Shown: positions 6,523 to 36,161 of the stretch, piece after piece
Layout of the letters: the number at the start of each line of letters is the position of its first letter
Numbering within the stretch: position 1 is the stretch's first letter
IMG/VR virus record: IMGVR_UViG_3300037847_000424
Span: 1-36,161 of that record
DNA length: 36,161 bases
Origin: a virus
Direction: 5' to 3' (one strand)
Notes under the pieces: generated by a model
Database searches by the model: none
What the model was told of the DNA's origin: nothing
Seen by the model: only the letters and a program-made list of their open reading frames with translations
Made by a program: the position numbers and the translations under genes

Positions 6523-9500
6523 TGGCTGACACACTGAAACCTGATCCGAGTAGAATAGCTCGCCGGTTGTCATCCTCGACAACTGGGGGTGAAGAAGTTT
6601 TCGAGTATGATCTCCTAGATTACGAACCTCAGCCTCTGCCAGAAACTGAGGAGGTCGAGTACGAGGAGGTCATCGACTACATCGACAGAACCGGCGAGAA
6701 GGTTCAGGTGCCTGTCTACAACGAGTCAGGCAAAAAGATTTACAGACCCACCTACAACGAGCAGGGAGTCATGACTCATGACGAGCGTGGCATCATGACG
6801 TTCGACGAGTGGAAGCGCAAAAGCGAGGAAGGCGTTGACTGGTGGCCGATAGCCAAGGAGGCAGTCGCTGGGTTGGCCCGAGGCTTCACCAAAATACCTG
6901 GCAAGATTGAGAAGGAAGGCTTCATGGAGGCATCTGCCAACATACCTGAGTCATTCCTAGCAGCCACAGAAGGACTGAAGTTGATCGGTGGAGGTGTTGG
7001 CAGATTTGTAGCTAAACCGTTCCGCAGTGATGAGGAGGAGGATGCTGCTGAGTACGCTGCCTACAAAGAGTTCGGCAATCAAATCTTTAGGCAGCTTGAG
7101 CTACGCAAATCGCGCATGGGCGATGTGGCTAGGTTGTTTGGTGCTGAAGACCTGGCTGCCGTTTACGATGACGGCATTGACCCGGAGATAGCTGACTCTC
7201 TCAGCCTGATCTTCGACCCAACCTACCTAGTCGGTGGAGGCTTGGTGAAGGTTGGTGCGGCAGCAGCAAAGCAGGCACCCAAGGTCACCAACAAGTACGC
7301 AAAGAAGCTGATCGAGGCAGCCGGTAAGGCAGCAGAAACACAAGCGGCAAAACAAGTTGGTGAGTTCCTAGCCAAGCCGGTCACATCTACTGTTAGCGGG
7401 ATTGGCACAGGAGTAGAGAAGGTTGGCCGAGGTGTGCAGAAGGTAGGTGAGGCAGGTGCTAAATTTGCTGAGAAGGCACCTAAGACTGCAAAAGCAGCAC
7501 AGATGGCAGTTGGTGCAGGCACTGGTGCTGTGTTGGCACCAGAAGGTCAGGAACTGACTGGTGCGCTTGGTGGTGCATTTGGAGGCAAGGTTGCACTTAG
7601 CTCAAAGGCAGTCACCGGCTTAGGCGAGAAGATCGAGAAGAACGCACAACGCCTTGGAGGAGCAGCACAAGCCGCAAAGATCAACTCACTACGCACTAGC
7701 GGTCTGGGCACAGTCGCCAAGATCAGGCCGATGCGCGAGGAGGTAGCCAAGCAGTTTGTCACCTTGGACAACCGAGTAGCGAACAGGTTGCTATCTGAAG
7801 CAGGCAAGTTGGCTGACACTGCTTTGATAGGTGCAGGCATGGGGGCAGGGATAGGTGCCTTCATGCCGTATGACCCAACGAACCCTGGCTACATTGCAGG
7901 CATGGCACTGGGCACGCTGGCGGCACCTGCTGGCATGTACTCAGCGGAAGCACTGAACCAACTCGCCAGAGTCGAGTTAGCCAAAGGTGCCGTACCTGAT
8001 GCCGGGCTGAGGTTGCGTCTGAAGGAGACTCCGATGCACAAACTGGCATCTGAGGCAGTGGTAAAAAGATTTATTTCAGCATTACCTGAGCAGCAACGAG
8101 TGAGGTTTGTTGACCCGGATCGAGGTCTGTCAGTTGCTGACCTGGCCAACCAGGCTGAGGCAGTTGATTTGTTTATGGGCGCGATGCGCGACAAAGGCAA
8201 AGACGTTAATTTCTTTATCGGCAACACACCTGAGATACTTGAGAAGACAGGAGGAACTGCCAGAGAAGGTGTGGCAGGTTTCTATGACCCGGACAGCAAT
8301 ACAGTCTTTGTAAACACAGACGCAGAGACTCCAAGCTTCACACTGTTTCATGAGCTATTCCACCCCACAGAGAGGTGGAGTGCGATGCGTAAGGACATCG
8401 ACGCAGACACAGGTGAGACAGTTAAGTCTGATCCGCTACAAGACATTCAGACTGACCTAGCACAGACTATCTTTGGCACCTACGGGCCAGACGGTGAGGT
8501 GATTCAGCCTGGACTCTACAGCAAGAAGGACATGCTGAGTTTTGCTGATCAGTACAACAGCAGACTGTACCCAGACCTATCTGCCAAGATCAAAGAAGTT
8601 GAGGCAGCGATTGAGGCTGAGAAGAAGAAGACTTTACCGGAGATCGATGGCATCGAGCCACCAGAGACACCGGAGATGAGGTTGCTAAACCGCGAGCTTG
8701 AAGAACTGCAAACTAGGCAGGAAGACAACCAGAAAGAGTTGGCAGCATTTGACGCACTGCCAGACGCTACCAAGCGCGACTACATGGCGAGGGAGTTGAT
8801 GTCCGACTACTTCGCAATGTTTGGCGAATCAGCTAGGCACGGCATCATCCGCAAGGCCAGAAACATCACGCTCAAGAAGGATTACTTCAAAGACAAGTTC
8901 CTCGGCATGAACATCGACAGGCTGAAGATGGCAACGCTGGGCAATCTGCGAAAGTTGCTTGAACGGTCTGGAGTAGAGTTTGACCTGGCAGGCAATCCGC
9001 GAGGAGAGATGACTGCCACAAGTGCGCTGTTCAAAGACCGAAAGACTGGTCGCGAGTTGGTCATGTCACCACAGATTGAACACCTCATCGCGCAGTACAT
9101 CACGGAGAAGGACAAGCTAGTCAACCGAGTTTCTGAGACTGACGATGTAGGTGGCTCAGAGATTACGCTCAACGCAAAAGACGTTCTCAAGAAAAACCCG
9201 GACGGCACACCTAAGATACCAGAAGCTGAGATCAAACGGTGGGCAAGTAGCGGGTGGCTCAAGACTGACAAAGAAGGCAACGTACTCAACTCGACAGGTG
9301 GCAGGTGGCAGCCCGGACAAAGACCGGCATTCACAACTGCGAGAGAGAGAACGCGCATGGACAAGAACCGAGTTGCGGCACTTGTCACTGCGCTAACTCC
9401 TGTCACTGAGAAGATTGCTGAAGGTGACCCAGGATCACTCACAGTCAAAGCGAGAGAGACGGCTGACGGTGGCACAAACTTTAGAGGCAGCTACTTCGAC

Positions 9501-12500
9501 GAGCAGCAGATGGATGCCATCATGGCAACGCCTGACGATGTCATTCATCCTGACCTCAAGTCAGTCATCAAGACGATGAACGATGCTATCAAAGAAGGCA
9601 AAGGCGCACCGTTCCTCGCTGACTACTGGAAGGCAATCACAGGGCGAGGATATGACTCCAAGGCTCGGATGAAGGTTCAGCTATTCACGCCTATCGGTAT
9701 GCAGATCAGCAGTGCCGGGAACTTCAATGCGACAGTCTTCAATATCGGCTATTTTGAGAACAAGATAAACAGGTGGCTAGGTCAGGCAGGTAAGAAGAAG
9801 TTTTGGTCAGACTGGGCTGACGCAGATGGCAGAGTGGATGTGGACAGTTTCCGCACTGACATGATGGAGCTTCTCAAGACTCACTACGAGAATGATCCGT
9901 CTAAGAAGTTTCCAGAAGGCATGAAGAAGGAGAAGCTTTACTCGTTCCTCGGAGTAAAGCCAGAAGACCTGAGCCGCAAGGACTGGAACAGGGCGGCTAA
10001 AGATTTTAAGTTATTCATCAGTCTGAGATTTGACAGGATGAAGGATGTCACTCGTGGCATGGGTGACAACTTCCCGGTCAACTACTACAAGGCAAAGCAG
10101 AGGTTCATGCCAGCAACAGCAGAACCTCGCCCCGCGCAAGACAAGCTAGGTTTCTTCAGCCGGGTGGAGCAGGTGGCTAGTGGCAACAAGATACCCAACC
10201 GAGGAACAGGTGAGCAGATGCTTGCCACTATAGCCAAGCAACCTGGAGTGAAGCAGGAAGAGATTGCGTGGTTGGGGCTGGAGGATTTCCTGAGAGGCAA
10301 GAAGCAGGTCACCAAGGATGAGCTTGTGGAGTTCATCCGCGAGAATGACGTTCAGCTTGAGGAGACGATGCTGGCTGAAGGCGTTTCACAAGCAGATCGA
10401 GATGCTTTAGTTGATGATTATGTGTCCAGAGAATCTGACAAGTTCCAGATTCTGTATGATGAAAGTGAGAAATCTTATCTCACTTATGATGACATTGACG
10501 GCAAGCCTCTAAGAAACCCGGATAGTGGCGAGTTGATAAAATACGGTGATCCTGACACGGCTATGGACGAATTAAAGCTCATGCTGGAGAGGGAAGCAGT
10601 AGATATGTATTCCCGCATGACAGACAGTGAGTTAATGCGGGATTTTGGCAGAGAAGGAGAACCTACCAAGTACCAAGAGTACCAACTCCCCGGAGCAGAA
10701 CCTGGGAGCTACCGTGAGTTGTTGCTGAGGTTGCCTGAGACTGAAGAGAAACCTAGAGATGTGTTAGGTGAACCAAAAAAAATCCCAGCTTCTGAAAGTT
10801 ACACTTATGTAGACCAACCCGAGGTTAGTCATGTCTTGCGCTATAATAAAGATTACGAGATTGCTGTTTTAGACAACGGAGACTATTGGGTGATGATGAT
10901 GAACGATGACTCGGTGGTAAAAGACTTATCTTCTGCTGAGAGTGTACTTGCTGATTATTTGGTCTCTGAGGAAGGTCAGTCATCTAAAAACACGTTCCGC
11001 TCATCACACTTTAGCGAGCCAAACATCCTCAGCCACGTTCGTTTCAATGACCGCACCGGGCCAGATGGAGAAAAGATTTTGTTCTTGGAGGAGTTGCAGA
11101 GTGACTGGCATCAGGAAGGCAGGAAGCTTGGGTATGCAAGGCCAGAAATAAGCAAGCTTCCCGAGGGATATTATGCGTTCCAGAAAGATGATGGCACTTG
11201 GGCAGTTACACACACAAGCAGTCCAGACAAGACTGAGGTAGCGGTTGGCTCAAACGAAGGCGAGGCAGTATCTAACGCTATCAACAAATACAACGAGGTG
11301 AGGAGGTCAGAACGAGGCACTGTCCCAGACGCACCGTTCAAATCCTCCTGGCACGAGTTAACGCTGAAGCGGATGCTGCGCTATGCTGCTGAGAACGGCT
11401 ATGACAAGTTGGCATTCATAGACGGCAAAGAGACTGCTGACCGCTATGACCTGAGTAAGAGAGTAGACAAAGTTGCCATATCTGACGATGAGACCGGCAA
11501 CCTGACAATCACCGCAGATGACTCTCTCATTGCCAGTGACGTTGAGCCAAATCAGCTAGAGAGATATGTAGGCAAAGAAGTCGCACAAAGAGCGTTGCAG
11601 AGTATCGAGGATACCAGTCCAGACATGAGCGGCAACAGAACAACAGTGCTGACTGACTCTGACCTCAAAGTCGGTGGACAGTGGGCATTCAACTTGTACG
11701 ACCGCATGATCCCGCAGTTCCTCAACAAGTACGGCAAGAAGTTTGGTGCCAAGGTTGAGGACTTTAGCACATCAATCCCAGATGAGCCGTTTCTGCCCCG
11801 AGATAGCACTTTCAAAGCCATCGACATCACACCGCAGATGCGCGGTGAGGAGGGCGTGCTGGGTGGGCAGGTTAGGTTCATGCCTGGCATTGAGCGGGTA
11901 GCCAACAACGAACCTGGACTTGCTGCTGAGACGGTCAAGATCAGGCCAGGTGCGCTTGACGGTGTGAGGTTCATGCCGGGAACGAAAGTTCCCAAGATCA
12001 CGCTGGAGAAGATAGTCGAGTCTGATCCGTTCATCATCACTGCCGACTCGATGGCTGACATGACCTACACAGTGCCAGACTCAGGTGTGGAGATAAAACT
12101 GCACGGTGGCCCGATGTTCTCCTACAGACCTGGTAGGGCAGTCTGGGCATCCAACAAAGGTGCCGCATCGAGGATCGGCAACTTCGTTGAGCGCACAGGT
12201 CAACGCTTTGCGCTCATCATGCTACAGAACGGCACTAACCACGCTAAGAATAAGAGCATGGGGCAAGTGTTCGTTGAGGAGTTGAAGGCTAGGTCAGGCG
12301 CAAAGAAGATCAAGCAGGGAGACCTCAAGAAGATGCTGAAGTTTGCTAGTGACCGCGCTGGGCTAGAAAAGCCGATCAAGAACCTAGCTGAGTTGGAGGA
12401 CTTCTACGCATTCTGGGACTGGGACACACGAGGCAACTTCTTCAAGACGTTTGGGCTGGTTAGGACACCGATAGGCGATCCAAAGAAGGCAGGCTTTTTT

Positions 12501-12863
12501 GACTACAACCAGATTGTCAGAGACACAACTCAGCCTGAGTTCCTAGACAAGCCAACCGGCACAATAGTTGGTGCCATCGAGTTTAAGAGTGGCAAGAGAT
12601 TCTCCGCTGAGGAACTTGGAGCAGAACCGCACAGCAGTTATGACACGATGCTGGAGGGCAGAGGTGTTGGATTATTTAAGAATCCACCACACATCAGCGA
12701 TGTGCTTGATGCGCCTGAGAGCCAGAGGTCAGTGTTCACACTACAAAAGAGACTTTCATCTCCCAACAGACTGAGGGAGGCAGCAGATGCTGAGAAGAAG
12801 CTGAACGCAATCCGCAGACACAGAAACAAGAATGCCGTCAGGAATACCAAAAAAGCACAATAG
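6522..12863 (+). CDS. Giant polyvalent internal virion protein with HExxH metallopeptidase motif
   Basis: 2113 residues, by far the largest gene. An acidic N-terminus (1-100) is followed by Ala/Gly-rich helical and hydrophobic segments (about 230-480, including several GAGTGA-type stretches) that could insert into membranes. A zincin motif HELFH lies at 610-614, and E758 in RELMSDYFAMFGE is a plausible third metal ligand. A domain with FLEELQSDWHQ (about 1520-1530) and FIDGKETADRYDLS (about 1632-1645) is of a type recurring in large phage polyvalent proteins. A basic C-terminal domain closes the chain. The tetrapeptide RFMP occurs at 1194, 1785 and 1816, apparently at module boundaries, and may mark linkers or cleavage sites. 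By place and size it is a core protein injected with the DNA; the peptidase might degrade host wall proteins, host defences or the protein itself. Architecture is seen; functions are inferred. Confidence 0.75.
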   Translation: MADTLKPDPSRIARRLSSSTTGGEEVFEYDLLDYEPQPLPETEEVEYEEVIDYIDRTGEKVQVPVYNESGKKIYRPTYNEQGVMTHDERGIMTFDEWKRKSEEGVDWWPIAKEAVAGLARGFTKIPGKIEKEGFMEASANIPESFLAATEGLKLIGGGVGRFVAKPFRSDEEEDAAEYAAYKEFGNQIFRQLELRKSRMGDVARLFGAEDLAAVYDDGIDPEIADSLSLIFDPTYLVGGGLVKVGAAAAKQAPKVTNKYAKKLIEAAGKAAETQAAKQVGEFLAKPVTSTVSGIGTGVEKVGRGVQKVGEAGAKFAEKAPKTAKAAQMAVGAGTGAVLAPEGQELTGALGGAFGGKVALSSKAVTGLGEKIEKNAQRLGGAAQAAKINSLRTSGLGTVAKIRPMREEVAKQFVTLDNRVANRLLSEAGKLADTALIGAGMGAGIGAFMPYDPTNPGYIAGMALGTLAAPAGMYSAEALNQLARVELAKGAVPDAGLRLRLKETPMHKLASEAVVKRFISALPEQQRVRFVDPDRGLSVADLANQAEAVDLFMGAMRDKGKDVNFFIGNTPEILEKTGGTAREGVAGFYDPDSNTVFVNTDAETPSFTLFHELFHPTERWSAMRKDIDADTGETVKSDPLQDIQTDLAQTIFGTYGPDGEVIQPGLYSKKDMLSFADQYNSRLYPDLSAKIKEVEAAIEAEKKKTLPEIDGIEPPETPEMRLLNRELEELQTRQEDNQKELAAFDALPDATKRDYMARELMSDYFAMFGESARHGIIRKARNITLKKDYFKDKFLGMNIDRLKMATLGNLRKLLERSGVEFDLAGNPRGEMTATSALFKDRKTGRELVMSPQIEHLIAQYITEKDKLVNRVSETDDVGGSEITLNAKDVLKKNPDGTPKIPEAEIKRWASSGWLKTDKEGNVLNSTGGRWQPGQRPAFTTARERTRMDKNRVAALVTALTPVTEKIAEGDPGSLTVKARETADGGTNFRGSYFDEQQMDAIMATPDDVIHPDLKSVIKTMNDAIKEGKGAPFLADYWKAITGRGYDSKARMKVQLFTPIGMQISSAGNFNATVFNIGYFENKINRWLGQAGKKKFWSDWADADGRVDVDSFRTDMMELLKTHYENDPSKKFPEGMKKEKLYSFLGVKPEDLSRKDWNRAAKDFKLFISLRFDRMKDVTRGMGDNFPVNYYKAKQRFMPATAEPRPAQDKLGFFSRVEQVASGNKIPNRGTGEQMLATIAKQPGVKQEEIAWLGLEDFLRGKKQVTKDELVEFIRENDVQLEETMLAEGVSQADRDALVDDYVSRESDKFQILYDESEKSYLTYDDIDGKPLRNPDSGELIKYGDPDTAMDELKLMLEREAVDMYSRMTDSELMRDFGREGEPTKYQEYQLPGAEPGSYRELLLRLPETEEKPRDVLGEPKKIPASESYTYVDQPEVSHVLRYNKDYEIAVLDNGDYWVMMMNDDSVVKDLSSAESVLADYLVSEEGQSSKNTFRSSHFSEPNILSHVRFNDRTGPDGEKILFLEELQSDWHQEGRKLGYARPEISKLPEGYYAFQKDDGTWAVTHTSSPDKTEVAVGSNEGEAVSNAINKYNEVRRSERGTVPDAPFKSSWHELTLKRMLRYAAENGYDKLAFIDGKETADRYDLSKRVDKVAISDDETGNLTITADDSLIASDVEPNQLERYVGKEVAQRALQSIEDTSPDMSGNRTTVLTDSDLKVGGQWAFNLYDRMIPQFLNKYGKKFGAKVEDFSTSIPDEPFLPRDSTFKAIDITPQMRGEEGVLGGQVRFMPGIERVANNEPGLAAETVKIRPGALDGVRFMPGTKVPKITLEKIVESDPFIITADSMADMTYTVPDSGVEIKLHGGPMFSYRPGRAVWASNKGAASRIGNFVERTGQRFALIMLQNGTNHAKNKSMGQVFVEELKARSGAKKIKQGDLKKMLKFASDRAGLEKPIKNLAELEDFYAFWDWDTRGNFFKTFGLVRTPIGDPKKAGFFDYNQIVRDTTQPEFLDKPTGTIVGAIEFKSGKRFSAEELGAEPHSSYDTMLEGRGVGLFKNPPHISDVLDAPESQRSVFTLQKRLSSPNRLREAADAEKKLNAIRRHRNKNAVRNTKKAQ

Positions 12864-14373: not shown

Positions 14374-14382
14374 TTGGTTAGC

Positions 14383-14409
14383 GCATGGTGAGTTTGTGGG
14401 GAGTTTCAG
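14383..14409 (+). repeat. 27-bp direct repeat, copy 1
   Basis: Perfectly identical to 14647-14673. The two copies flank the tRNA-like attP core at a centre-to-centre distance of 264 bp. Read in frame this copy would encode HGEFVGSF followed shortly by a stop, the same peptide present in the gene at 14633. It may be an integrase arm-type site or the relic of a local duplication. Confidence 0.85.
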
Positions 14410-14420
14410 CAGATAAGCGC

Positions 14421-14438
14421 GGAAACGAGATTGTTTCC
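14421..14438 (+). repeat. Inverted repeat GGAAAC/GTTTCC upstream of attP core
   Basis: GGAAAC (14421-14426) and GTTTCC (14433-14438) are perfect complements around GAGATT. It lies 25 bases upstream of the tRNA-like core. It could be a protein-binding site of the intasome or a transcript hairpin; the sequence alone does not decide. Confidence 0.5.
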
Positions 14439-14464
14439 TAGAGAAAAAGCCAAGTAGACAAGTA

Positions 14465-14519
14465 TTCAAAATCCGCTTCTTTCACGAGAGTGTGGGTTCG
14501 AGTCCCTCCACTGGTACCA
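14465..14519 (+). other. Putative attP core: 3' half of a tRNA-Leu(CAA) gene
   Basis: The stretch reads as a class II tRNA from the anticodon loop to the CCA end. The anticodon loop is TTCAAAA with anticodon CAA at 14467-14469, and the 3' anticodon strand is TCCGC (14472-14476). A 14-15 base variable arm folds as TTCTT/GAGAG. The T arm is GTGGG-TTCGAGT-CCCTC (14492-14508, one T-T mismatch). The 3' acceptor strand is CACTGGT, followed by discriminator A and CCA (14517-14519). No matching 5' half (acceptor ACCAGTG or anticodon strand GCGGA) is present upstream, so it is not a functional tRNA gene. A tRNA 3' half beside an integrase is the classic form of attP, and integration would restore the host tRNA. 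The type is well established; this instance is inferred. Confidence 0.8.
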
Positions 14520-14524
14520 TAGCT

Positions 14525-14537
14525 TTTCCTCAGGAAA
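14525..14537 (+). repeat. Palindrome TTTCCT-C-AGGAAA
   Basis: A perfect 6-bp inverted repeat around a single C, just downstream of the attP core. With the inverted repeats at 14421-14438 and 14572-14585 it makes the attachment region unusually dense in dyad symmetry, which is consistent with bound integration factors. Confidence 0.5.
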
Positions 14538-14571
14538 TCTTCTTCTTTCCTAACTAAACAACAACAAAAGC

Positions 14572-14585
14572 GGATCATCTGATCC
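14572..14585 (+). repeat. Palindrome GGATCA-TC-TGATCC
   Basis: A perfect 6-bp inverted repeat with a 2-base centre, between the attP core and the GGTGAC repeats. It is a plausible operator or accessory site for an integration/excision protein. There is no T-run, so it is not a terminator. Confidence 0.5.
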
Positions 14586-14604
14586 TCCTGTGCTACTCAG
14601 CAAA

Positions 14605-14640
14605 GGTGACATGTGGTGACATGTGGTGACATATGGTGAC
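14605..14640 (+). repeat. Four GGTGAC iterons with exact 10-bp period
   Basis: GGTGAC occurs at 14605, 14615, 14625 and 14635, within repeated units GGTGACATGT, GGTGACATGT, GGTGACATAT and GGTGACACAC. A spacing of about one helical turn places all copies on one DNA face. Their location between the attP core and int suggests arm-type integrase sites or excisionase sites. GGTGAG also occurs inside both 27-bp repeats. Confidence 0.8.
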
Positions 14641-14914: not shown

Positions 14915-14933
14915 CTTTTTTACAGTTTGTGGC

Positions 14934-14988
14934 TTGACGGTGGGTGTACACCCGTGTACATACACCCCCCAGACGGTGACCGTACACC
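14934..14988 (+). promoter_or_regulatory. int promoter with three overlapping palindromic operators
   Basis: TTGACG (14934-14939) and TACATA (14957-14962) are separated by 17 bases, a sigma-70-like arrangement. The spacer contains the perfect palindrome GGGTGTACACCC (14942-14953). The -10 lies inside GTGTACATACACCC (14954-14967), and a weaker GGTGACCGTACACC follows at 14975-14988. A protein bound to these sites would directly block the promoter. The same motif recurs near 16115, 17011 and 21991. The promoter and repression are inferred from sequence only. Confidence 0.65.
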
Positions 14989-14998
14989 GCACAAAGCC

Positions 14999-16090
14999 AT
15001 GAACGAAATACAGATACCAGGCAACCGAGCCGTCCAGCAAAAGCTGAAGAAGACCGGGCGAGGTTGGTTCTCCTACCGGCTGCGAGTAGTAGCTAGGAAG
15101 ATCGACAAGTTCCTCAAAAGCAAAGCCGACAACAAGTTCGACGCTGCCGAGGACATCCGCGACCAGATCGCCAAACTCAACCAACCTACCGAGGCACCTG
15201 CTGTGGTGGCTACCGGCGAGTTGATGAACTGGCGGCAGATATACGCTGAGTTGGACGCACACAGCGACAACGGTGATCACCAGATCAGGTCAGCCAAGTC
15301 TGGCATGAGCAGGATCATCAAAGGCATCGGTGACACTCTGGACAACTACCCGCACGAATGCACAGTAGATCGTGTTGAGAGTTTTTTTGAGAAAGTCATC
15401 AAGACCGGCAAGACTCCTGATGCCAAGCTGAAGTTGGAGAAGAAGCTGAATGTCTCTTTGCGGCAGGCTAAGTACGGAGTGTTCAAGCGGAGCATGTTGA
15501 AGTACTACACGATCCGCGAAGACTTTAACTTCACCAAGCTGAAGGTGAAGCGATATAAGCCCGAGAAGTACCGCAGCCCACAGGATGATCGCCACCTGCG
15601 CTGTGACAAGTACATGCGAGATGTGGTGAAACACGAAGACCCGATGGTCTATGGTTACTACCTCATCATGCGAGTGTCAGGTCAGCGCAACATCGAGGTC
15701 ATCAACGCCAAGCGTTGCAACTTGCTGGAGGACTGCTTTGTGAATGACCGCATCGTGAAGAAGAAGAACGAGGTGGCTCGACAGATACCGTACCCGGAAA
15801 GCTTCACCGAGGAGGATAGGCAGTTTCTGCTTAACTTAAATCCTGACGGTGACACAGTGCTGACTGGCACCGACTGGGAGATGGAGCAGGGCTACGGCAA
15901 GCGTCTGAACGCATACTTAAAGCCGTTTGGCTTTACTGCCTACAAGCTTCGCAAGGAGTGGGCAAGCCAGGTGCTGGCGAGCGGAGTGCCGCTGGAGGCA
16001 GTCGCTGAGATGCTGGGTAACACAATCCAGATTCTGCTGGATCACTATGTCGATACCGGCAAGCACAAGATTAAGCTACAGCTAGGATAG
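14999..16090 (+). CDS. int: Tyrosine recombinase (phage integrase)
   Basis: 363 residues from the ATG at 14999. The frame is open further upstream to a TTG at 14927, but the promoter at 14934-14962 makes the ATG the likely start. A basic N-terminus (KLKKTGRGWFSYRLRVVARK) resembles an arm-binding or leader segment; a SAM-like core-binding domain lies at about 75-180 and the catalytic domain at about 190-355. Active-site candidates are R230 (SGQRNIEV), K256 (KKKNE), R318 (YKLRKEW) and the nucleophile Y350 (LLDHYVD), nine residues after N341 in LGN. Two canonical histidines appear replaced: HxxR is Y315-K-L-R, and LGH is LGN. The enzyme would catalyse integration at the tRNA-Leu attP 480 bp upstream. 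It is regulated by the promoter/operators just upstream. Confidence 0.9.
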   Translation: MNEIQIPGNRAVQQKLKKTGRGWFSYRLRVVARKIDKFLKSKADNKFDAAEDIRDQIAKLNQPTEAPAVVATGELMNWRQIYAELDAHSDNGDHQIRSAKSGMSRIIKGIGDTLDNYPHECTVDRVESFFEKVIKTGKTPDAKLKLEKKLNVSLRQAKYGVFKRSMLKYYTIREDFNFTKLKVKRYKPEKYRSPQDDRHLRCDKYMRDVVKHEDPMVYGYYLIMRVSGQRNIEVINAKRCNLLEDCFVNDRIVKKKNEVARQIPYPESFTEEDRQFLLNLNPDGDTVLTGTDWEMEQGYGKRLNAYLKPFGFTAYKLRKEWASQVLASGVPLEAVAEMLGNTIQILLDHYVDTGKHKIKLQLG

Positions 16091-17541: not shown

Positions 17542-17699
17542 GAGAGTATCTAACAGCACAGCAGGTGGCCGATCTGCTATCCACAACGCTTAGGACAGTC
17601 AGGCGCAACATCCAGAAAGGCAGGTTGAAGAGCAGTCGAGTAGGAGGCTTGCGGAGAGTTGCTGTGGAGGATTTTGAGAAGTTTGCCAGAGGACGCTGA
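17538..17699 (+). CDS. Excisionase/MerR-type HTH DNA-binding protein (53 aa)
   Basis: A 53-residue gene starting GTG at 17538 inside the stop of the RlpA-like gene (GTGA). The sequence follows the winged-HTH pattern of the HTH_17/excisionase family: REYLTAQQVADLL (2-14), TLRTVRRNIQKGRL (17-30), and RVGGLRRVAVEDFEKFARG (34-52), the 'R.GG..RV...D...F' wing. Such proteins bend DNA at att sites or act as small transcription regulators. In a phage with an integrase and arm-type repeats, excisionase is the leading hypothesis, although it is 1.4 kb from int. It abuts the methyltransferase gene. Confidence 0.75.
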   Translation: MREYLTAQQVADLLSTTLRTVRRNIQKGRLKSSRVGGLRRVAVEDFEKFARGR

Positions 17700-18754
17700 T
17701 GTGGATACTACCAAAACAACTCATCTCAGCTTCTGCGCTGGATACGGAGGCATTGATCTCGGACTCCAGCGAGTTCTCCCAAGTTGCAGAACAGTCGCTT
17801 ATGTGGAGATCGAAGCCTTCGCAATCGCGAACCTGGTCGCAAAGATGGAAGCGGGAGACTTGGATGCGGCACCTGTCTGGACGGACATTAAGACATTCCC
17901 AGCAGAACCGTTTCGCGGCCTGGTGGACATCATCTCTGGTGGCTATCCGTGCCAACCGTTCTCAGCAGCAGGTAGCCGACTCGGCACAAAAGACCCAAGA
18001 CACCTCTGGCCGTTTCTACGCAGAGCAATACGAGTTATTCAGCCCGGAAGAGTGTTCCTCGAAAACGTCGAAGGACACATCTCGCTTGGACTCTCCACAG
18101 TTATCAGCGACTTGGATGAAGATGGTTATCGAGCAACGTGGGGAATATTTAGCGCGTCTGAAGTCGGAGCAAGCCACCAGAGAAAGAGAGTCTTCATCAT
18201 GGCCGACTCCGTGCGCGAGGGATCACAAAGACAGTGGGGAGAATGTGGATTACGCGAAGGTGGCGAAGAAGCACAAGTTGTCGGGAGTTGTTCAGCTTTG
18301 GCCAACTCCAGATGCGTCAATAGAGAAGTTTCGACTGAGCGGCAACAGTCAGCAAAGCCGGTCTTTGGAAGCAATGAGCAGGAGAGGAGAGCTTTCCCCG
18401 CCAGACCTGGAGAGCAGCAATTCGACTGGGAAGAACCCCGCACGGTGGCCGACACCAAAAGCAAACAATCCGTCATCAACGAGGAAACCGGGCACAGGAG
18501 GCAAAGAGTTGTCGCAGGAGGCAAAGAACTGGGCGACACCGGAGGCACAGAACCAAACCGGCTACCAGACAAAGAACGGACAGGTCTTTCCAAGGTTGGG
18601 GAGTCAGACAGCGGGAAAGCTAAACCCAAGCTGGGTGGAGCAACTGATGGATGTACCAGTACTTTGGACGCAACTGCCAACAGAGTGGACAGACTCAGAC
18701 TGCTTGGCAACGGAGTTGTGCCAGCAACAGCAGCAAAAGCATGGACAGTTTTAA
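17699..18754 (+). other. Long alternate reading frame inside methyltransferase gene (WPTP/WATP repeats)
   Basis: A frame of 351 codons beginning ATG at 17699 runs open in frame +1 relative to the methyltransferase. Its first third looks random, but from about residue 104 it contains organised sequence: GRFYAEQYELFSPEECSSKT, EYLARLK, WPTP at 168, 201 and 250, WATP at 278, and LNPSWVEQLMDVPVLWTQL near the end. WPTP-type repeats followed by a 'LNP.WVE.LM..P..W' ending are, from memory, recurrent in phage methyltransferase loci. Hence this may be a genuinely overlapping gene, or the original frame of the recognition region joined by frameshifting. A real start within the conserved part (for example ATG 18116) is possible. 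Expression is not demonstrated. Confidence 0.4.
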
Positions 18755-18783
18755 GCAAAAGATTTGAGCACTATGAGAGTTGA
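17701..18783 (+). CDS. C5-cytosine DNA methyltransferase
   Basis: 360 residues from the GTG at 17701, one base after the previous stop. Upstream in-frame starts would overlap the HTH gene. Conserved motifs are in order: I (FCAGYGGIDLG, 11-21), IV with the catalytic Cys (GGYPCQPFS, C84), VI (FLENVEG, 119-125), VIII (GASHQRKRVFIMA, 156-168) and X (LRLLGNGVVP, about 332-341). It transfers a methyl group from SAM to C5 of cytosine in a short DNA target, probably protecting phage DNA from host restriction. The region between VIII and X (about 170-330), which should hold target recognition, is low-complexity and polar (Gly, Glu, Arg, Ser-rich). The same DNA is open in a second frame with more regular motifs (see next entry). 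The catalytic half is intact. Confidence 0.88.
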   Translation: MDTTKTTHLSFCAGYGGIDLGLQRVLPSCRTVAYVEIEAFAIANLVAKMEAGDLDAAPVWTDIKTFPAEPFRGLVDIISGGYPCQPFSAAGSRLGTKDPRHLWPFLRRAIRVIQPGRVFLENVEGHISLGLSTVISDLDEDGYRATWGIFSASEVGASHQRKRVFIMADSVREGSQRQWGECGLREGGEEAQVVGSCSALANSRCVNREVSTERQQSAKPVFGSNEQERRAFPARPGEQQFDWEEPRTVADTKSKQSVINEETGHRRQRVVAGGKELGDTGGTEPNRLPDKERTGLSKVGESDSGKAKPKLGGATDGCTSTLDATANRVDRLRLLGNGVVPATAAKAWTVLSKRFEHYES

Positions 18784-18997
18784 TCTAGGAGAACTAAAAC
18801 AAATCACAAACACCAAGAAGCGACTAGGTGAGAACGCAGACTACAAGTTTGTCATCATGAATGTGGACGGCAAGGAGACCGGCTTCATGTTTACAGACAG
18901 AGAGTTGGAGGCACCAAGACGCAGGGCAGAAGTACAGCGGGAGGATGCACCCAAGAAACGCAACTTCTGGCAGAGAGTGTTTAAGAAGCGCAAGTGA
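18773..18997 (+). CDS. Small hypothetical protein
   Basis: 74 residues from the ATG at 18773, overlapping the end of the methyltransferase by 11 bases. The sequence starts MRVDLGELKQITNTKKRLGE, continues with a probable strand pair (YKFVIMNVDGKETGFMFTDREL) and ends strongly basic (PKKRNFWQRVFKKRK). No family is recognised. The basic tail suggests nucleic acid or membrane-surface contact. The stop overlaps the GTG start of the nuclease gene (GTGA), so it is probably co-translated with the replication/recombination genes. Confidence 0.65.
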   Translation: MRVDLGELKQITNTKKRLGENADYKFVIMNVDGKETGFMFTDRELEAPRRRAEVQREDAPKKRNFWQRVFKKRK

Positions 18998-19338
18998 ACA
19001 GCAGGAGCAAAGGCGCGAGAGGAGAACGCATGTGGCGAGATCAGCTACGAGAAGCAGGCTTCAAGGCTATCCGAGGCTGCCAGCATTCAGCGAGAGATGC
19101 TGACGGCACAGAGGCACCTGATGTGATCTGCCCTAGCCTTCCAGGCATCCACCACGAGGTGAAGTTTGTGGAGAAGCTGAACGTGCAGAATGCGATGGAT
19201 CAGGCGATCAGGGATGCCAAGGAGCATCAGATACCTGTGGTGGCGCACAAGAAGAAGAACTGCGATTGGCTAGTGACTGTGCGAGCAGATGACTGGTTTC
19301 GCATCATAAGAGAATCAGATTTAGTAACAGAACAATGA
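18994..19338 (+). CDS. PD-(D/E)XK nuclease, Hjc/VRR-NUC-like resolvase
   Basis: 114 residues, GTG start overlapping the previous stop. Motifs: E11 in GARGERMW, RGCQHS (27-32), D43 in APDV, and E55-V-K57 in HHEVKF, followed by a Q-containing helix (NVQNAMDQAIRDA) and PVVAHKKKNCDWLVTVRADDW. This is the compact layout of archaeal-type Holliday-junction resolvases and phage relatives, which cut branched recombination intermediates. It lies upstream of an ssDNA-binding-like protein and a RecB-like exonuclease, forming a recombination module. It may resolve branched DNA before packaging. Catalytic residues all appear present. Confidence 0.8.
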   Translation: MNSRSKGARGERMWRDQLREAGFKAIRGCQHSARDADGTEAPDVICPSLPGIHHEVKFVEKLNVQNAMDQAIRDAKEHQIPVVAHKKKNCDWLVTVRADDWFRIIRESDLVTEQ

Positions 19339-19587: not shown

Positions 19588-20103
19588 ATGATAATAGCAA
19601 ATAGCACAGGATACGAACTGGCACCGGCAGGCACACACAACGTGGTCTGCGTGGATGTCATTGATTGTGGTGAAGCATACGGCATTGAGCCTGATCCCAA
19701 GACCGGGATGAGGTTGGTGCCAGGTGCCACCGAGGACAGAAAGCCACAAGCCAAAATCAGGTTTGTGTTTGAGTCAGAGAAGAAGATGGCTGACGGCAGG
19801 CCGTTCCAGATAGATCGCATGTTTGGTGCGACACTGTCGGATCAAGGCCACCTGAAGCCGTTCTTGGACGCTTGGGGCATCGAGTTGGAGATGACTCCAC
19901 AAGGCCCGGACATCGCAAAGTCGGTCATCGGCAAGACTGCCTTGGTGAACATCATTCACCGCGATGACAAGTGGGCCAACATCAGTAGCATCATGCCTGG
20001 CCAGGTGGAACTGAGTCCGTCAGGTGACTATGACGGTGCTGGGACTAGGGAGCGCATGAAGGCTGCCTACGAGAAGAGACAGAACGAAAACGCTCCGTAC
20101 TGA
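19588..20103 (+). CDS. Phage ssDNA-binding-like protein
   Basis: 171 residues. The N-terminal part (ELAPAGTHNVVCVDVIDCGEA, residues 10-30) and the core (KIRFVFESEKKMADGRPFQIDRMFGATLSDQGHLKPFLDAWG) followed by a small beta-barrel-like stretch (VIGKTALVNIIHRDDKWANISSIMPG) fit a family common in phages as an ssDNA-binding-like recombination factor next to an exonuclease. The C-terminus is charged and flexible (TRERMKAAYEKRQNENAPY). Its stop overlaps the ATG of the exonuclease gene, and the two would work as a pair. It follows a structured leader at 19471-19568. The assignment is by pattern and neighbourhood. Confidence 0.6.
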   Translation: MIIANSTGYELAPAGTHNVVCVDVIDCGEAYGIEPDPKTGMRLVPGATEDRKPQAKIRFVFESEKKMADGRPFQIDRMFGATLSDQGHLKPFLDAWGIELEMTPQGPDIAKSVIGKTALVNIIHRDDKWANISSIMPGQVELSPSGDYDGAGTRERMKAAYEKRQNENAPY

Positions 20104-20915
20104 TGATCATCCCACTGCCAAAAGAGAAAAACTCAGGCCCGAGTCAGCACTGGTACAACATGCAGGCTGAGGCTTGTCACTGGCAGGAGGATGGCAAACC
20201 AACAACACTCAGGCACGCTAGGAAGCAAAATTTGGTTCCTAGTGTGTCGAGTGTGTTGGGTGTGATAGAAAAGCCACAACTGACCAAGTGGAAGGCTGAC
20301 GAGATGGTGCGTCATTGCCTCCAGAATCCTCATGTAGAGGGAGAACCAGAGCGGGACTACATCAACCGCATCCACGGTGCTGCCAAGAGCAGTAAGAGCG
20401 AAATCCTAGAGTTTGGCACCAGAGTCCATCACGGCATCGAGATGTACAACCTGGGCACCTACGATGAGCAGGAAGACCCGGACATCTTTCCGTATGTAGA
20501 GACCTACATCAGGTGGGCACAGAAGAACGTCAAGAAGGTCATCTCAGCAGAGAAGACGGTTGTTAATAAGAAGCTAGGCTATGGCGGCACAATCGACCTG
20601 GTGGCTGAACTGAAGAACCAGCGCGGGGTGACAATCATCGACTACAAGACACAACGCTGGGCTGCCGATAAAAAGCCTAGTTTCCACGAAAGCTGGGCAT
20701 GGCAACTGGCGGCATATCGTAAGACGATGAGGCCAAACCCGCACTGCCTCAGCTTGGTGATAAGTGCTACTGAGCCAAGACCGATCATTGAGCGATGGTG
20801 GTCTAAGTCGGAACTCCAGACAGCCTGGAGGTGCTTCAACGGTGCGAGGACAGTGTGGCAGGAGAGCAGGGACTACAGACCTAAATATGAGTCTGATCAA
20901 CAAGGCAATATCTGA
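20103..20915 (+). CDS. RecB/Cas4-like PD-(D/E)XK exonuclease
   Basis: 270 residues. Nuclease motifs are clear: GTRVHHGIE (105-113, His at 109/110), E150 in SAEK, the GYGGTIDLVAEL motif with D165, and IIDYKT (178-183, D180 and K182), followed by QLAAYR (201-206). This is the RecB-family order seen in lambda-exonuclease-like and Cas4-like phage enzymes. It would degrade one strand to create tails for annealing. It overlaps the ssDNA-binding-like gene by one base, and both lie in the early replication/recombination block. An associated annealase is not recognisable, so the upstream protein may serve that role. Confidence 0.85.
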   Translation: MIIPLPKEKNSGPSQHWYNMQAEACHWQEDGKPTTLRHARKQNLVPSVSSVLGVIEKPQLTKWKADEMVRHCLQNPHVEGEPERDYINRIHGAAKSSKSEILEFGTRVHHGIEMYNLGTYDEQEDPDIFPYVETYIRWAQKNVKKVISAEKTVVNKKLGYGGTIDLVAELKNQRGVTIIDYKTQRWAADKKPSFHESWAWQLAAYRKTMRPNPHCLSLVISATEPRPIIERWWSKSELQTAWRCFNGARTVWQESRDYRPKYESDQQGNI

Positions 20916-21114
20916 GGAGGAGGCTAGGGAGAGAGGTGGAGTAGCCATCTCGTTTCCCTGCCGTAATGTCGATGAACTATGGATAATCAAGAACATGATA
21001 GCCGACCTGGACAGAGCCGGGGAGGAGTGGGTGGTGGTGAAGACTGTCCACAAGACACACAGCAAGAGAGGCAGCTTCGAGACACCAGCACTGGAACTGT
21101 GGAAACTAAACTGA
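20887..21114 (+). CDS. Small hypothetical protein
   Basis: 75 residues from the ATG at 20887, overlapping the exonuclease by 29 bases. A much longer upstream extension of the frame would lie wholly within the exonuclease gene and looks like shadow sequence. The sequence is amphipathic helix plus strand (INKAISEEEARERGGVAISF, then LWIIKNMIADLDRAGEEWVVVKTVHK). No family is recognised. It lies between the exonuclease and the DnaA-like gene, so it is probably part of the replication operon. Confidence 0.6.
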   Translation: MSLINKAISEEEARERGGVAISFPCRNVDELWIIKNMIADLDRAGEEWVVVKTVHKTHSKRGSFETPALELWKLN

Positions 21115-21449
21115 AGGCATATCCAGACACTCCACCTGAGAGTAGACGTAGGCTGAAACTGCTGACAGAAGCTGCCTGTGAGTTCTGGGATATCCCCAGA
21201 GAAGACTTACTTGGCAGAAGTCGCAAGTATGACATCGTCTGGCCAAGATCGGTGTGCATGGTCATTAGCCAGGAGGCAGGATACTCATCCACAGCAACCG
21301 GCAAATACTTCAACAGAGATCACGGCACTGCGCTACATGCCAAGAAGACAGTTTCCGATCTCAGAGACACCAGAGAGGCGTACAATCAGCAGTACAGACA
21401 GTTTGTAGATTTTGCTAAAAAATACATATCTAAGCGTATGCAACCATGA
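21099..21449 (+). CDS. DnaA domain IV-like DNA-binding protein
   Basis: 116 residues from the GTG at 21099; an ATG at 20979 would overlap the previous gene almost completely. The core resembles the DnaA C-terminal helix-turn-helix domain: AACEFWDIPREDLLGRSRKYDIVWPRS (about 25-51) then VCMVISQEAGYSSTATGKYFNRDHGTALHAKKTVSDL, whose RDHGTALHA corresponds to the box-recognition signature RDHTTVLHA of host DnaA. It lacks an ATPase domain, so it may place the host replisome at a phage origin. The AT-rich repeat tract follows within 10 bases. Near-consensus DnaA boxes lie at 21285 (TCATCCACA) and 20978 (TATGGATAA, reverse). Confidence 0.8.
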   Translation: METKLKAYPDTPPESRRRLKLLTEAACEFWDIPREDLLGRSRKYDIVWPRSVCMVISQEAGYSSTATGKYFNRDHGTALHAKKTVSDLRDTREAYNQQYRQFVDFAKKYISKRMQP

Positions 21450-21638
21450 ATAACTGCAAGAAACTTAAAAAACTGCATTTAGTACTTACTGAAGATCAGT
21501 CACTTAGGTGCATTTATTTCCTAATAATAGCTATAGTAGCTATATAGCTATAATGCTTAATAGACATATACTTAAGTATTTAAGCTATTAAGCATATTAA
21601 GCACTATAGCACTATAGCATTATAGCTAATACCCCGAT
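21450..21638 (+). other. AT-rich repeat tract: candidate replication origin
   Basis: The most AT-rich stretch in the window. TAGCTATA is repeated at 21528, 21537 and 21545. ATGCTTAATAG (21553-21563) and CTATTAAGCAT (21585-21595) are perfect inverted repeats enclosing the palindrome ATACTTAAGTAT (21568-21579). ACTATAGC at 21603 and 21611 and ATTATAGC at 21619 repeat with 8-bp period. Such DNA melts easily. Together with the neighbouring DnaA-like gene it is a strong candidate origin. No convincing long gene is present; a possible 33-codon frame at 21446-21547 runs into the repeats. Confidence 0.6.
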
Positions 21639-21980
21639 ATGAAGATTCTAAACAGCAAAGATGCCTACTCCTACAAACTCCAACTGGAGCAGGTGCGTGA
21701 GCAGATGAGGATGCTGGAGGAGAACGGCATCTACGATGTGGCTGGCAACCGCATTAGGAAGGAAGACCAGGAGCAGTACCGGCAACTGAAGCGCATGGAG
21801 CATCACCTGCGACAGTTGGCGAGTGGGATCGAAAAGCCAAAGCCGTTTGCGGCAGAGAAGACGGTGGAGAAGAAGGACACCAGGCCAAGGCTGACAGATG
21901 AGCAGAGGCTAGAGATGGCTAGAAAGCTCTCTGAGGTACGAAAGCACCTTGGCCGCTGTGCTGACACTCTGGAGAAGTAA
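21639..21980 (+). CDS. Hypothetical coiled-coil protein
   Basis: 113 residues, not recognised. Strongly charged and helical: LQLEQVREQMRMLEENGIYD, then EDQEQYRQLKRMEHHLRQLASG, a Lys/Pro linker (EKPKPFAAEK) and a helical end (EQRLEMARKLSEVRKHLG). Coiled-coil multimerisation is probable. No Cys pairs or membrane segment. It is the first gene after the AT-rich tract. Confidence 0.65.
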   Translation: MKILNSKDAYSYKLQLEQVREQMRMLEENGIYDVAGNRIRKEDQEQYRQLKRMEHHLRQLASGIEKPKPFAAEKTVEKKDTRPRLTDEQRLEMARKLSEVRKHLGRCADTLEK

Positions 21981-21990
21981 AAACGTCTCT

Positions 21991-22008
21991 GAGGTGTATG
22001 TACGCCTC
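21991..22008 (+). promoter_or_regulatory. Operator-like palindrome GAGGTGTATGTACGCCTC
   Basis: A near-perfect 18-bp palindrome (a single T-G mismatch in the pairing) matching the family at 14942, 16115 and 17011. It lies 18 bases before the ATG at 22026. It could be an operator of the same regulator, or a short hairpin at the end of the previous gene; there is no T-run after it. Confidence 0.5.
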
Positions 22009-22025
22009 AAGAAAGGCATATAGCG

Positions 22026-22253
22026 ATGAAGCGAGTGAGAGTGATAGCGAGATACGGAGATGGAGATGCTGAGATTGACGCTTTGCTGGAGAGGCAGGCA
22101 CTGCGTAACGGTGGCAGGAGACGCATCTTCCTGAAGGAGCTACAGACTGATTGTCCTTACACAAGAGAGAGAAGGATGTTTCTGCCTCCAAGAGAACTGT
22201 GCGCTGACTCCAGCCACAGGAGTTGGGATGGCTACAACTGGGAGAGAGTATGA
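22026..22253 (+). CDS. Small basic hypothetical protein
   Basis: 75 residues, Arg-rich (MKRVRVIARYGDGDAEIDAL, RQALRNGGRRRIFLKELQTD), ending with aromatic residues (SWDGYNWERV). No family or motif is recognised. It follows an operator-like palindrome and precedes the structured RNA candidate, so it may be under the same regulator as int and the RHH genes. Confidence 0.55.
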   Translation: MKRVRVIARYGDGDAEIDALLERQALRNGGRRRIFLKELQTDCPYTRERRMFLPPRELCADSSHRSWDGYNWERV

Positions 22254-22263
22254 ATGACTTTTA

Positions 22264-22350
22264 TGCAACCGGGCCAACTTCAAGTCCGCTCCCTCAGCGG
22301 CTATGTGTTCTAATGGTTACTGACAGTAATGGTTGAGAGGCCCGGTTGCA
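22264..22350 (+). ncRNA. Structured RNA candidate upstream of TerS
   Basis: TGCAACCGGGCC (22264-22275) and GGCCCGGTTGCA (22339-22350) form a perfect 12-bp closing stem. Inside are CCGCT-CCCTC-AGCGG (22286-22300) and TTACT-GAC-AGTAA (22317-22329), giving a three-way junction-like fold. AATGGTT also occurs twice within it. No convincing protein frame covers it. It may be a regulatory leader of the terminase genes, an RNA acting in packaging, or a DNA packaging site with dyad symmetry. Folding is visible by base pairing; function unknown. Confidence 0.6.
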
Positions 22351-22367
22351 GAATTTGGTAAAAACTT

Positions 22368-23180
22368 ATGGCAGTCAAAAAAGCACAACGTAAGAAGGCA
22401 ACGAACAAGCCTCCGGTGCCTGGCAAGGTGGTCAAGCTAACCGAGGATGAGATCGTCGAGAGAAAGGCAAAGCTGGATGAGCTTTACAACGCTCCGGTAC
22501 AGATGCCTGCATCAGTATTCAGCGCAAGAGCGGATCAGGAGAGCAAGCTGGGAACAGGCAAGAAGACAGGCAGGAGGACAGGTTACACGCCTGATAGGGT
22601 GGAAGCATTCCTGAAGAATGTCAGGTCAGGTCTTCCGGTTTTGCGAGCAGCAGCACTAGCTGCCATACCGAAGTCGAACTTGTATGACTGGGCAAAGAAG
22701 TACTCTGACTTCTCGGATGCAATCCAGCAGGCAGAGACAGAATACCAAGCTTTTGCGCTAGGAACGGTCAATGATGGCATAGCTAACGGAGACGGTCATT
22801 TGGCCATGAAGCTACTGGGAGCGAGGTTCTCCGACGAGTATGCGACAAGCAAGAAGGTTGATGTTCGCAACCACAGGATCGAGTCCAGCATCAGTGCAGA
22901 TCAGCTAATGAATCTCCAGTCAGTCAGGCTGAATACGGATGTTGTATCCGCAGCGAATGTGATTGAAACGGAAGAACCAGAAGCATCTGCTGCGAAACTC
23001 ACCACAGACCCACCAGACAATGACGGTTCTGCTGAGAATGAGGGTGGGGGCACCCCACAGTCGGGGGGTGGTCATCACAACACCCCACCCCCAACTAAAC
23101 CCTCCCACACGGGGCTTTCTTCAGGCACTCCAGCAGACGCTACTTCAGACACCCAGCAGGATGAGCAAACGCAGCAATAA
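22368..23180 (+). CDS. terS: Terminase small subunit
   Basis: 270 residues. A basic N-terminus is followed at about 65-110 by a helix-turn-helix-type domain (GYTPDRVEAFLKNVRSGLPVLRAAALAAI, PKSNLYDWAKKYSDF), the pattern of small terminase DNA-binding domains, and a helical oligomerisation part (DAIQQAETEYQAFALGTVND...HLAMKLLGARF). From about residue 195 the tail is low-complexity (Gly, Thr, Pro, Gln-rich). TerS recognises the packaging site and regulates TerL. It precedes a kinase and small genes before TerL, instead of adjoining TerL directly. The identity rests on HTH pattern and context. Confidence 0.7.
   Translation: MAVKKAQRKKATNKPPVPGKVVKLTEDEIVERKAKLDELYNAPVQMPASVFSARADQESKLGTGKKTGRRTGYTPDRVEAFLKNVRSGLPVLRAAALAAIPKSNLYDWAKKYSDFSDAIQQAETEYQAFALGTVNDGIANGDGHLAMKLLGARFSDEYATSKKVDVRNHRIESSISADQLMNLQSVRLNTDVVSAANVIETEEPEASAAKLTTDPPDNDGSAENEGGGTPQSGGGHHNTPPPTKPSHTGLSSGTPADATSDTQQDEQTQQ
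23045..23092 (+). repeat. G/C-rich hairpins inside the end of terS
   Basis: TGGGG-GCA-CCCCA (23045-23057) and GGGGGTGG (23064-23071) with CCACCCCC (23085-23092). They fall in the low-complexity coding region. Packaging sites often lie inside or beside terS, so this is one candidate; G-tract secondary structure alone could also explain it. Confidence 0.4.
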
Positions 23181-35742: not shown

Positions 35743-36161
35743 ATGCCAGACATCAGCACCACACAATCATTTGCAGATGGTGATACCGTAACGGCAGCCA
35801 AGCTGAACAACATCATTGCAGGTGCATCGATCACCTCCGGTGCAGTCACAAACGCCAAGCTTGCTACTGACGCAGTTGAGTTGGACAACATGGCAAACAA
35901 CTCGGTGGACACTGCTGAGTTGGTTAACAATGCTGTACAGAACAGCAAGCTGGAGACGATGGCGGCCAAGACGGTCAAGGCCAACGCCACCAACGCCACT
36001 GCTAATCCGACTGACGTTGCTGTGGCAGCCAACAAGCTACTGGCAGGCACCAGCAACAGCATCAATGCGGTCAGCTTCACAGACGATCTTGAGTTGGATG
36101 CCAGTGACTCTGCTGCCACAAAGATCAAAGCGGCAGCCACACTGATAGGTGGCAAGTCCAG
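35743..36161 (+). CDS. Tail fibre-like protein, 5' part (continues at position 2)
   Basis: ATG at 35743 preceded by TAGGAGGCA, a strong ribosome-binding site. The 139 codons present run off the right edge and, through the 174-base terminal overlap, continue to the stop at 718 for a total of 320 residues. The N-terminus (MPDISTTQSFADGDTVTAAKLNNII) and the following 'AKLATDAVELDNMANNSVDT...LETMAAKTVKANATNATANPTDVAVAAN' are classic collar repeats of marine phage tail fibres (AVT.AKLA..AV...KL). It is the second putative fibre besides 31957. Confidence 0.8.
   Translation, partial: MPDISTTQSFADGDTVTAAKLNNIIAGASITSGAVTNAKLATDAVELDNMANNSVDTAELVNNAVQNSKLETMAAKTVKANATNATANPTDVAVAANKLLAGTSNSINAVSFTDDLELDASDSAATKIKAAATLIGGKS
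35988..36161. repeat. Terminal redundancy, right copy
   Basis: Matches 1-174 with two silent substitutions (C36051 versus G64; C36075 versus T88). See the left copy. It shows circular closure of the genome. Confidence 0.9.

Follow-up and report, generated by a model that had tools for sequence, protein, structure and literature searches.

In the window, by which we mean the whole 36,161-nucleotide stretch of viral DNA analysed here (IMG/VR record IMGVR_UViG_3300037847_000424), a gene encoding domain IV of DnaA and no other part of that protein is followed by an AT-rich tract and by a gene for a small coiled-coil protein, p21639. This gene order is fixed among relatives of the phage. The tract contains a rigid 55-bp element and a hypervariable dyad whose arms covary, and the combination of tract and p21639 is mutually exclusive with a primase-helicase that is encoded by sister phages. 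We see an even chance that positions 21099–21980 constitute the replication-start module of a temperate tailed phage that has neither helicase nor primase of its own. The DNA binding, origin activity and helicase recruitment that such a module would require are predicted from sequence comparison and structural models.

A DnaA protein consisting of domain IV

The gene for the DnaA domain IV protein (hereafter DnaA-IV; 21099–21449, + strand) begins with a GTG codon at 21099 and ends with a stop codon at 21447–21449, giving a product of 116 amino acids. The only credible family to which this protein can be assigned is Bac_DnaA_C (PF08299), the DnaA domain IV family, of which it is a member; the match spans profile positions 5–69 of 69 and scores 49.8 bits against a gathering cut-off of 31.5 (E = 3.4 × 10−13). 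A Pfam scan found no AAA+ or DnaA_N match in the 116 residues, and the protein thus lacks the AAA+ domain (domain III) and the domain I that define a full DnaA. As a control, the same profile library detected all three domains in a chromosomal DnaA (L138). The AlphaFold model, computed with 27 relatives, has a pLDDT of 88.5, and Foldseek places it 1.0 Å from the DNA-bound DnaA DNA-binding domain of Mycobacterium tuberculosis (3pvp) and 1.3 Å from that of Escherichia coli (1j1v); the nearest solved chains are DnaA without exception. E-values and model confidence are by themselves no proof of function. The residues expected to contact DNA are conserved: R42 and H75 are invariant in the alignment of 27 relatives, and the domain IV fold assigns them the roles of minor-groove arginine and recognition-helix (HTH) histidine. 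In our alignment they correspond to R399 and H434 of E. coli DnaA. Residues 73–81 have the sequence RDHGTALHA. These results bear out the original prediction, which had described a DnaA domain IV-like protein with an RDHGTALHA-like box-recognition motif and without an ATPase domain, and which had proposed structure prediction as one check; the DnaA-like fold on which it depended is indeed the one predicted.

The phage protein shares its fold with bacterial DnaA domain IV (E. coli 1j1v, M. tuberculosis 3pvp) to about 1 Å and keeps the same arginine and histidine, but domains I–III are missing, and with them the ATPase, the filament and the helicase contact; the canonical box is also absent from the adjoining tract. 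Stand-alone DnaA-IV proteins, encoded near a nuclease and annotated as initiators, are already known from HTVC010P-type pelagiphages such as Greip and HTVC203P, in which the gene is close to both a nuclease and an annealing protein, and from the DnaA C-terminal proteins of uncultured Caudovirales. DnaA is listed in all HTVC010P-related genomes (PMC6811365). A search of BFVD returned 39 DnaA-IV models at E ≤ 1 × 10−3, many of them named DnaA C-terminal. The proteins of the pelagiphages and uncultured Caudovirales are about 25–30% identical to that of the window, and their loci have no comparable AT-rich element right after the gene. A literature search, confined largely to non-subscription journals, found no paper reporting a tested function for any phage-encoded DnaA-IV. 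Two sets of database matches were rejected as mis-filed records: the Acinetobacter ‘phage’ matches are chromosomal dnaA genes beside dnaN, recF and gyrB, and the Salmonella matches are annotated as bacterial DnaA. The sole return from a genome scan for proviruses that might point to a host was the chromosomal dnaA of a Marinilabiliaceae MAG.

DnaA-IV is the last gene of a recombination-type operon on the + strand. The upstream end of this operon is a RusA-like or PDDEXK_15 resolvase-like gene (18994–19338; phrog_244, E = 2.7 × 10−18; PDDEXK_15, E = 5.5 × 10−6, slightly below the cut-off). It is followed by a small conserved gene (19588–20103; phrog_862, of unknown function, E = 3.2 × 10−4) with a relative of 28.5% identity in the pelagiphage Baldr, where it adjoins a nuclease, a helicase and a primase. 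Next come a PD-(D/E)XK nuclease of the phage exonuclease type (20103–20915; PF12705, E = 2.3 × 10−6; phrog_298, E = 4.3 × 10−25) and a 75-amino-acid gene, ‘sm’ (20887–21114), which overlaps the start of the DnaA-IV gene and has homologues both in the p21639 clade and in the primase-helicase sisters. Directly after the tract, p21639 (21639–21980, + strand; found on 39 contigs) encodes 113 amino acids that AlphaFold models as three helices (pLDDT of 76.7), and a comparison of this coiled-coil fold with the PDB gave no match below E = 1. By analogy, p21639 is a candidate partner of DnaA-IV, comparable to a helicase recruiter. Farther downstream, the terminase small subunit gene (terS; 22368–23180, + strand; phrog_4102, E = 3 × 10−14) forms the border of the interval that holds the primase-helicase in the sisters. 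An inverted repeat (GCAACCGGGCC ... GGCCCGGTTGC) at 22254–22367, in the gap that separates terS from the gene at 22026, is possibly a terminator or a TerS site.

A rigid element and a covarying dyad

The tract occupies the 189 bp between the stop codon of DnaA-IV and the next start codon (21450–21638), and has an AT fraction of 0.71. As had been proposed, the most AT-rich DNA comes right after the DnaA-IV gene: the most AT-rich segments of 50, 100, 150 and 190 bases in the entire window are inside or overlap the tract, and the best 100 nucleotides, at 21512, reach 0.76. The nested inverted repeats described earlier are also present, with arms of up to 24 nucleotides, and the tract folds as single-stranded DNA with a z-score of −4.2. 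The sequence TAGCTATA occurs five times in the tract, summed over both strands, and ACTATAGC three times. Excess 8-mers number 28, compared with 5.3 ± 3.1 in dinucleotide shuffles, which is a difference of seven standard deviations that none of 2,000 shuffles reached; the count of the top 8-mer is also significant (P = 0.0025). GC skew was uninformative: the contrast at fourfold sites was not significant at the tract (P = 0.10), and its best position, 18.5 kb, gave P = 0.46.

The tract could also be an origin that is opened by host DnaA or another host factor, with the phage DnaA-IV acting not as the initiator but as a competitor or regulator that, for example, occludes the host oriC or times the early–late switch. 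The protein has the DNA-binding part only, as a dominant-negative DnaA would, and in sister phages its inheritance is separate from that of the tract. However, the tract contains no exact DnaA box (TTWTNCACA), a consensus from which the box of the host may differ. Boxes with one mismatch (TTATCCACA) number 17 across the window compared with 5.7 expected (none of 100 shuffles reached 17), but they are scattered without a cluster at the tract and the nearest, at 21285, is within the DnaA-IV gene. We consider a host-opened origin quite unlikely.

The most constrained part of the tract is a 55-bp element at 21471–21525 on the + strand (AACT ... ACTTAGGTGCATTTATTTCCTAAT, with the core ACTTARRTGCATT), which aligns without gaps in 24 relatives and is present as a single copy per genome. 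In the window, its PWM scores 29.5 at the element and 5.6 at the next best site. A 23-mer pattern of the element was found in at least 26 contigs among 2.9 million viral contigs, once in each and always in the same position; all 26 were already in our set of relatives, and the L030 contig has the motif yet was not returned. A direct repeat with a spacing of 35 inside the element, seen in the window, was not outstanding among relatives and was set aside.

Adjoining this element is an AT-rich hypervariable dyad (21524–21631), in which short repeats (TAGCTATA, ACTATAGC and GCTTAATA in the window) form complementary arms. The repeat unit differs between clades, being TAGCTATA, TAATAGTA, TATACGA or AAGCTTA. 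The mean pairing energy is −30.7 kcal/mol between the arms of a single genome and −12.3 kcal/mol between arms from different clades; the arms therefore covary, and complementarity has been kept during sequence turnover. The dyad is weak in L126, L118 and L100 (z of about −0.2 to −0.8). In the close clade, + strand RNA folds of the dyad are strong (z of −4 to −8) and, with terS about 700 bp downstream, this could indicate a structural or processing element with no part in initiation, such as a pac site or an RNA hairpin that signals RNase III processing or attenuation. G–U pairs account for 52 of 858 dyad pairs on the + strand and 73 of 877 on the − strand, and the fold is not clearly stronger on the + strand, which argues against selection at the RNA level; no Rfam family matched the tract (best E = 0.062). 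Given that the transcribed strand has neither an excess of G–U pairs nor clearly stronger structure, we read the dyad as selected at the DNA level, and we hold a processing or packaging signal to be very unlikely.

The original prediction had named TAGCTATA and ACTATAGC as iterons. Repetition beyond chance in the tract is upheld, but the reading of the repeats as iterons specific to DnaA-IV is not supported, as repeats and protein have been exchanged independently. The DnaA-IV proteins of L131 and L129 are 97% identical and their 55-bp elements are identical, whereas their dyads share almost no 6-mers (Jaccard index of 0.05). Conversely, the window shares its dyad with L079 and L085 (0.73–0.76) although the proteins are 48–53% identical, and its nearest DnaA-IV protein, that of L086 (58%), is accompanied by different dyad repeats (0.15). 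Protein identity and dyad similarity correlate over all pairs (Spearman’s ρ = 0.70), as they would through shared descent alone, and pair counts from so few clades are not independent. Because the dyad repeats do not track DnaA-IV, the 55-bp element is, judged from these comparisons, more likely than the repeats to be the binding site of the protein. The window is also mosaic relative to L081 and L083: DNA identity is 51–92% from the nuclease to DnaA-IV (20103–21449) and mostly 90–98% in the flanks, it recovers within the tract, and 22000–22290 is a second replaced patch.

Relatives and primase-helicase sisters

When IMG/VR was scanned with the DnaA-IV alignment and with p21639, about 39 distinct contigs were recovered, all of which are metagenomic and many short. 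The order of DnaA-IV, tract and p21639 is the same in the window and in about 35 other phage contigs, wherever the sequence extends far enough. Tract length ranges from 159 to 523 bp with a median AT fraction of 0.69, and in almost all relatives no part of the retrieved locus, or hardly any, is richer in AT than the tract; the clearest exception is L135, which has the tract of 523 bp. Conservation of the tract had been suggested as a check, and it takes the form of a fixed gene order across these roughly 35 contigs and, in the aligned tracts, of a rigid 55-bp part and a variable dyad part. Two relatives, L131 (2513–2885) and L137 (1672–2029), have a second, divergent DnaA-IV-like gene farther downstream.

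Pfam and PHROG scans of nearly all proteins of the window recognized no polymerase, helicase or primase, and six-frame searches for PF13481, PF03796, PF01807 and PF00476 were also empty, in agreement with what had been claimed for this genome. Sister phages (L065, L071 and L142–L156), the large terminase subunits of which are about 56% identical to that of the window, encode a primase-helicase of 672–690 amino acids that combines an AAA_25 ATPase with a DnaG-type CHC2 zinc finger and is located in the same interval between ‘sm’ and terS. These sisters have neither p21639 nor an AT-rich tract after DnaA-IV, and no primase-helicase was found among the p21639 phages searched. In a terminase-related Akkermansia phage, Chambord, the corresponding place is taken by a DnaB-like helicase.

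The sisters retain the DnaA-IV gene behind the nuclease, without the tract. As this gene is common to both groups, it is the tract together with p21639 that is exclusive with the primase-helicase, and the DnaA-IV gene itself is ruled out as a replacement for that enzyme. The exclusivity is the strongest indirect indication of a replication role for the tract and p21639. The sisters likewise provide the strongest evidence that DnaA-IV can act without the tract.

Other regions of the window provide context for the phage. Overlapping frames at 17659–18783 and 17699–18754 both match DNA methyltransferase families (C5 methylase PF00145 in one and phrog_1008 in the other), and the sisters L065, L144 and L151 have a comparable pair of frames. 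A 2,113-amino-acid protein (6522–12863) with a single weak PHROG match (endolysin region, 1495–1644) is likely to be a large virion-type protein of the particle interior. About 174 bp at one end of the contig (1–174) recur imperfectly at the other (35988–36161), within a tail-fibre-like gene, which suggests that the contig is complete or almost so. This repeat reflects either the overlap of two strain variants in the assembly or a tail-fibre segment that is present twice. A tRNA 3′-end sequence (CACGAGAGTGTGGGTTCGAGTCCCTCCACTGGTACCA) within 14374–14632, just upstream of a tyrosine integrase gene (14927–16090), is likely to be the attP of a temperate phage that integrates into a tRNA gene. The presence of an integrase, and of dyads in the AT-rich tract, could suggest that the tract is itself the attachment site. 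However, a tRNA end upstream of the integrase gene is the usual attP arrangement, whereas the tract lies at a distance of 5 kb and does not adjoin the integrase in relatives; we give this reading almost no credence.

A possible replication start or transcription switch

In the replication-start model, DnaA-IV would bind the DNA adjacent to its gene, more probably at the 55-bp element than at the variable repeats. The neighbouring AT-rich dyad would then melt or extrude hairpins, and its sequence would be free to change provided that AT-richness and self-complementarity are retained. p21639, in place of the primase-helicase of the sisters, would help to bring the host replicative helicase, after which the host replisome, if captured in this manner, might copy the phage DNA. 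In phage lambda, O, ori and P line up an origin-binding protein, AT-rich origin DNA and a further protein, and the host replisome is used; O reads the iterons. The locus described here likewise has a candidate origin binder, AT-rich DNA and possibly a partner protein side by side; it differs from lambda in that the folds are unrelated, the turnover of the repeats is independent of the protein and p21639 is a putative helicase binder. The conserved domain IV fold with its base-contact residues, and the recombination-type neighbours in the operon, favour the model, as do the constant gene order, the AT maximum at the tract, the single-copy element, the covarying dyad, the exclusivity with the primase-helicase and the helicase genes of Chambord and Baldr. 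Several observations count against it. DnaA-IV is without domain I and the ATPase, the helicase-loading parts of DnaA, which leaves no known loading route; the tract is in the natural position for a promoter of the packaging operon; sisters have DnaA-IV without a tract; the repeats are not tied to the protein; TTWTNCACA is missing; the GC-skew contrast at the tract is not significant; and some relatives show a weak dyad.

Its main rival is that DnaA-IV is a transcription activator similar to GafA or GafY, the 55-bp element is the promoter or operator of an operon of p21639, terS and the large terminase gene terL, and the dyad lies in the 5′ leader or marks a transcription boundary. GafA and GafY of gene transfer agents belong to a phage-derived system, have a DnaA-like DNA-binding domain and act upstream of terS (PMC9638019); GafA of RcGTA binds 75–125 bases upstream of that gene, and in most Hyphomicrobiales homologues a small separate DnaA-like gene precedes gafA (PMC9638019). 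The tract is directly upstream of an operon that leads to terS, a fixed-length element would suit a promoter as well as an origin, and DnaA-IV has been kept by sisters that encode a primase-helicase themselves, as a regulator would be. However, the sigma-like and central domains of GafA and GafY are absent from the window’s protein, for which an activator function is putative, and Pfam and PHROG searches, which weak homology could escape, found no GafA-like sigma-like domain or partner in the neighbouring genes. The tract has no sigma-70-like match, and a long covarying AT-rich dyad is not required for a promoter. Moreover, no comparable tract is seen in sisters that carry DnaA-IV, and activation leaves unexplained why the tract and p21639 are exclusive with the primase-helicase. 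On balance, we judge an activator to be rather unlikely.

Phage proteins consisting of DnaA-IV were already known; what is new here is the coupling of such a protein to a rigid element, a covarying dyad and the coiled-coil p21639. For the temperate phage group as a whole, we tentatively propose, while thinking it somewhat improbable, a two-protein mode of initiation without a phage ATPase, in which DnaA-IV would act on a dedicated element and a drifting, self-complementary AT-rich dyad and a coiled-coil protein would recruit the host helicase, replacing a primase-helicase of the phage. In environmental phages, the name ‘initiator’ is commonly given to proteins that consist of DnaA-IV alone, and this group offers a sharp test of that annotation through its single-copy, fixed-length 55-bp element, its natural swaps of dyad and protein and its primase-helicase sisters. 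The outcome could show how replication starts without a phage helicase, primase or polymerase, or that late-gene switches have been misannotated as initiators.
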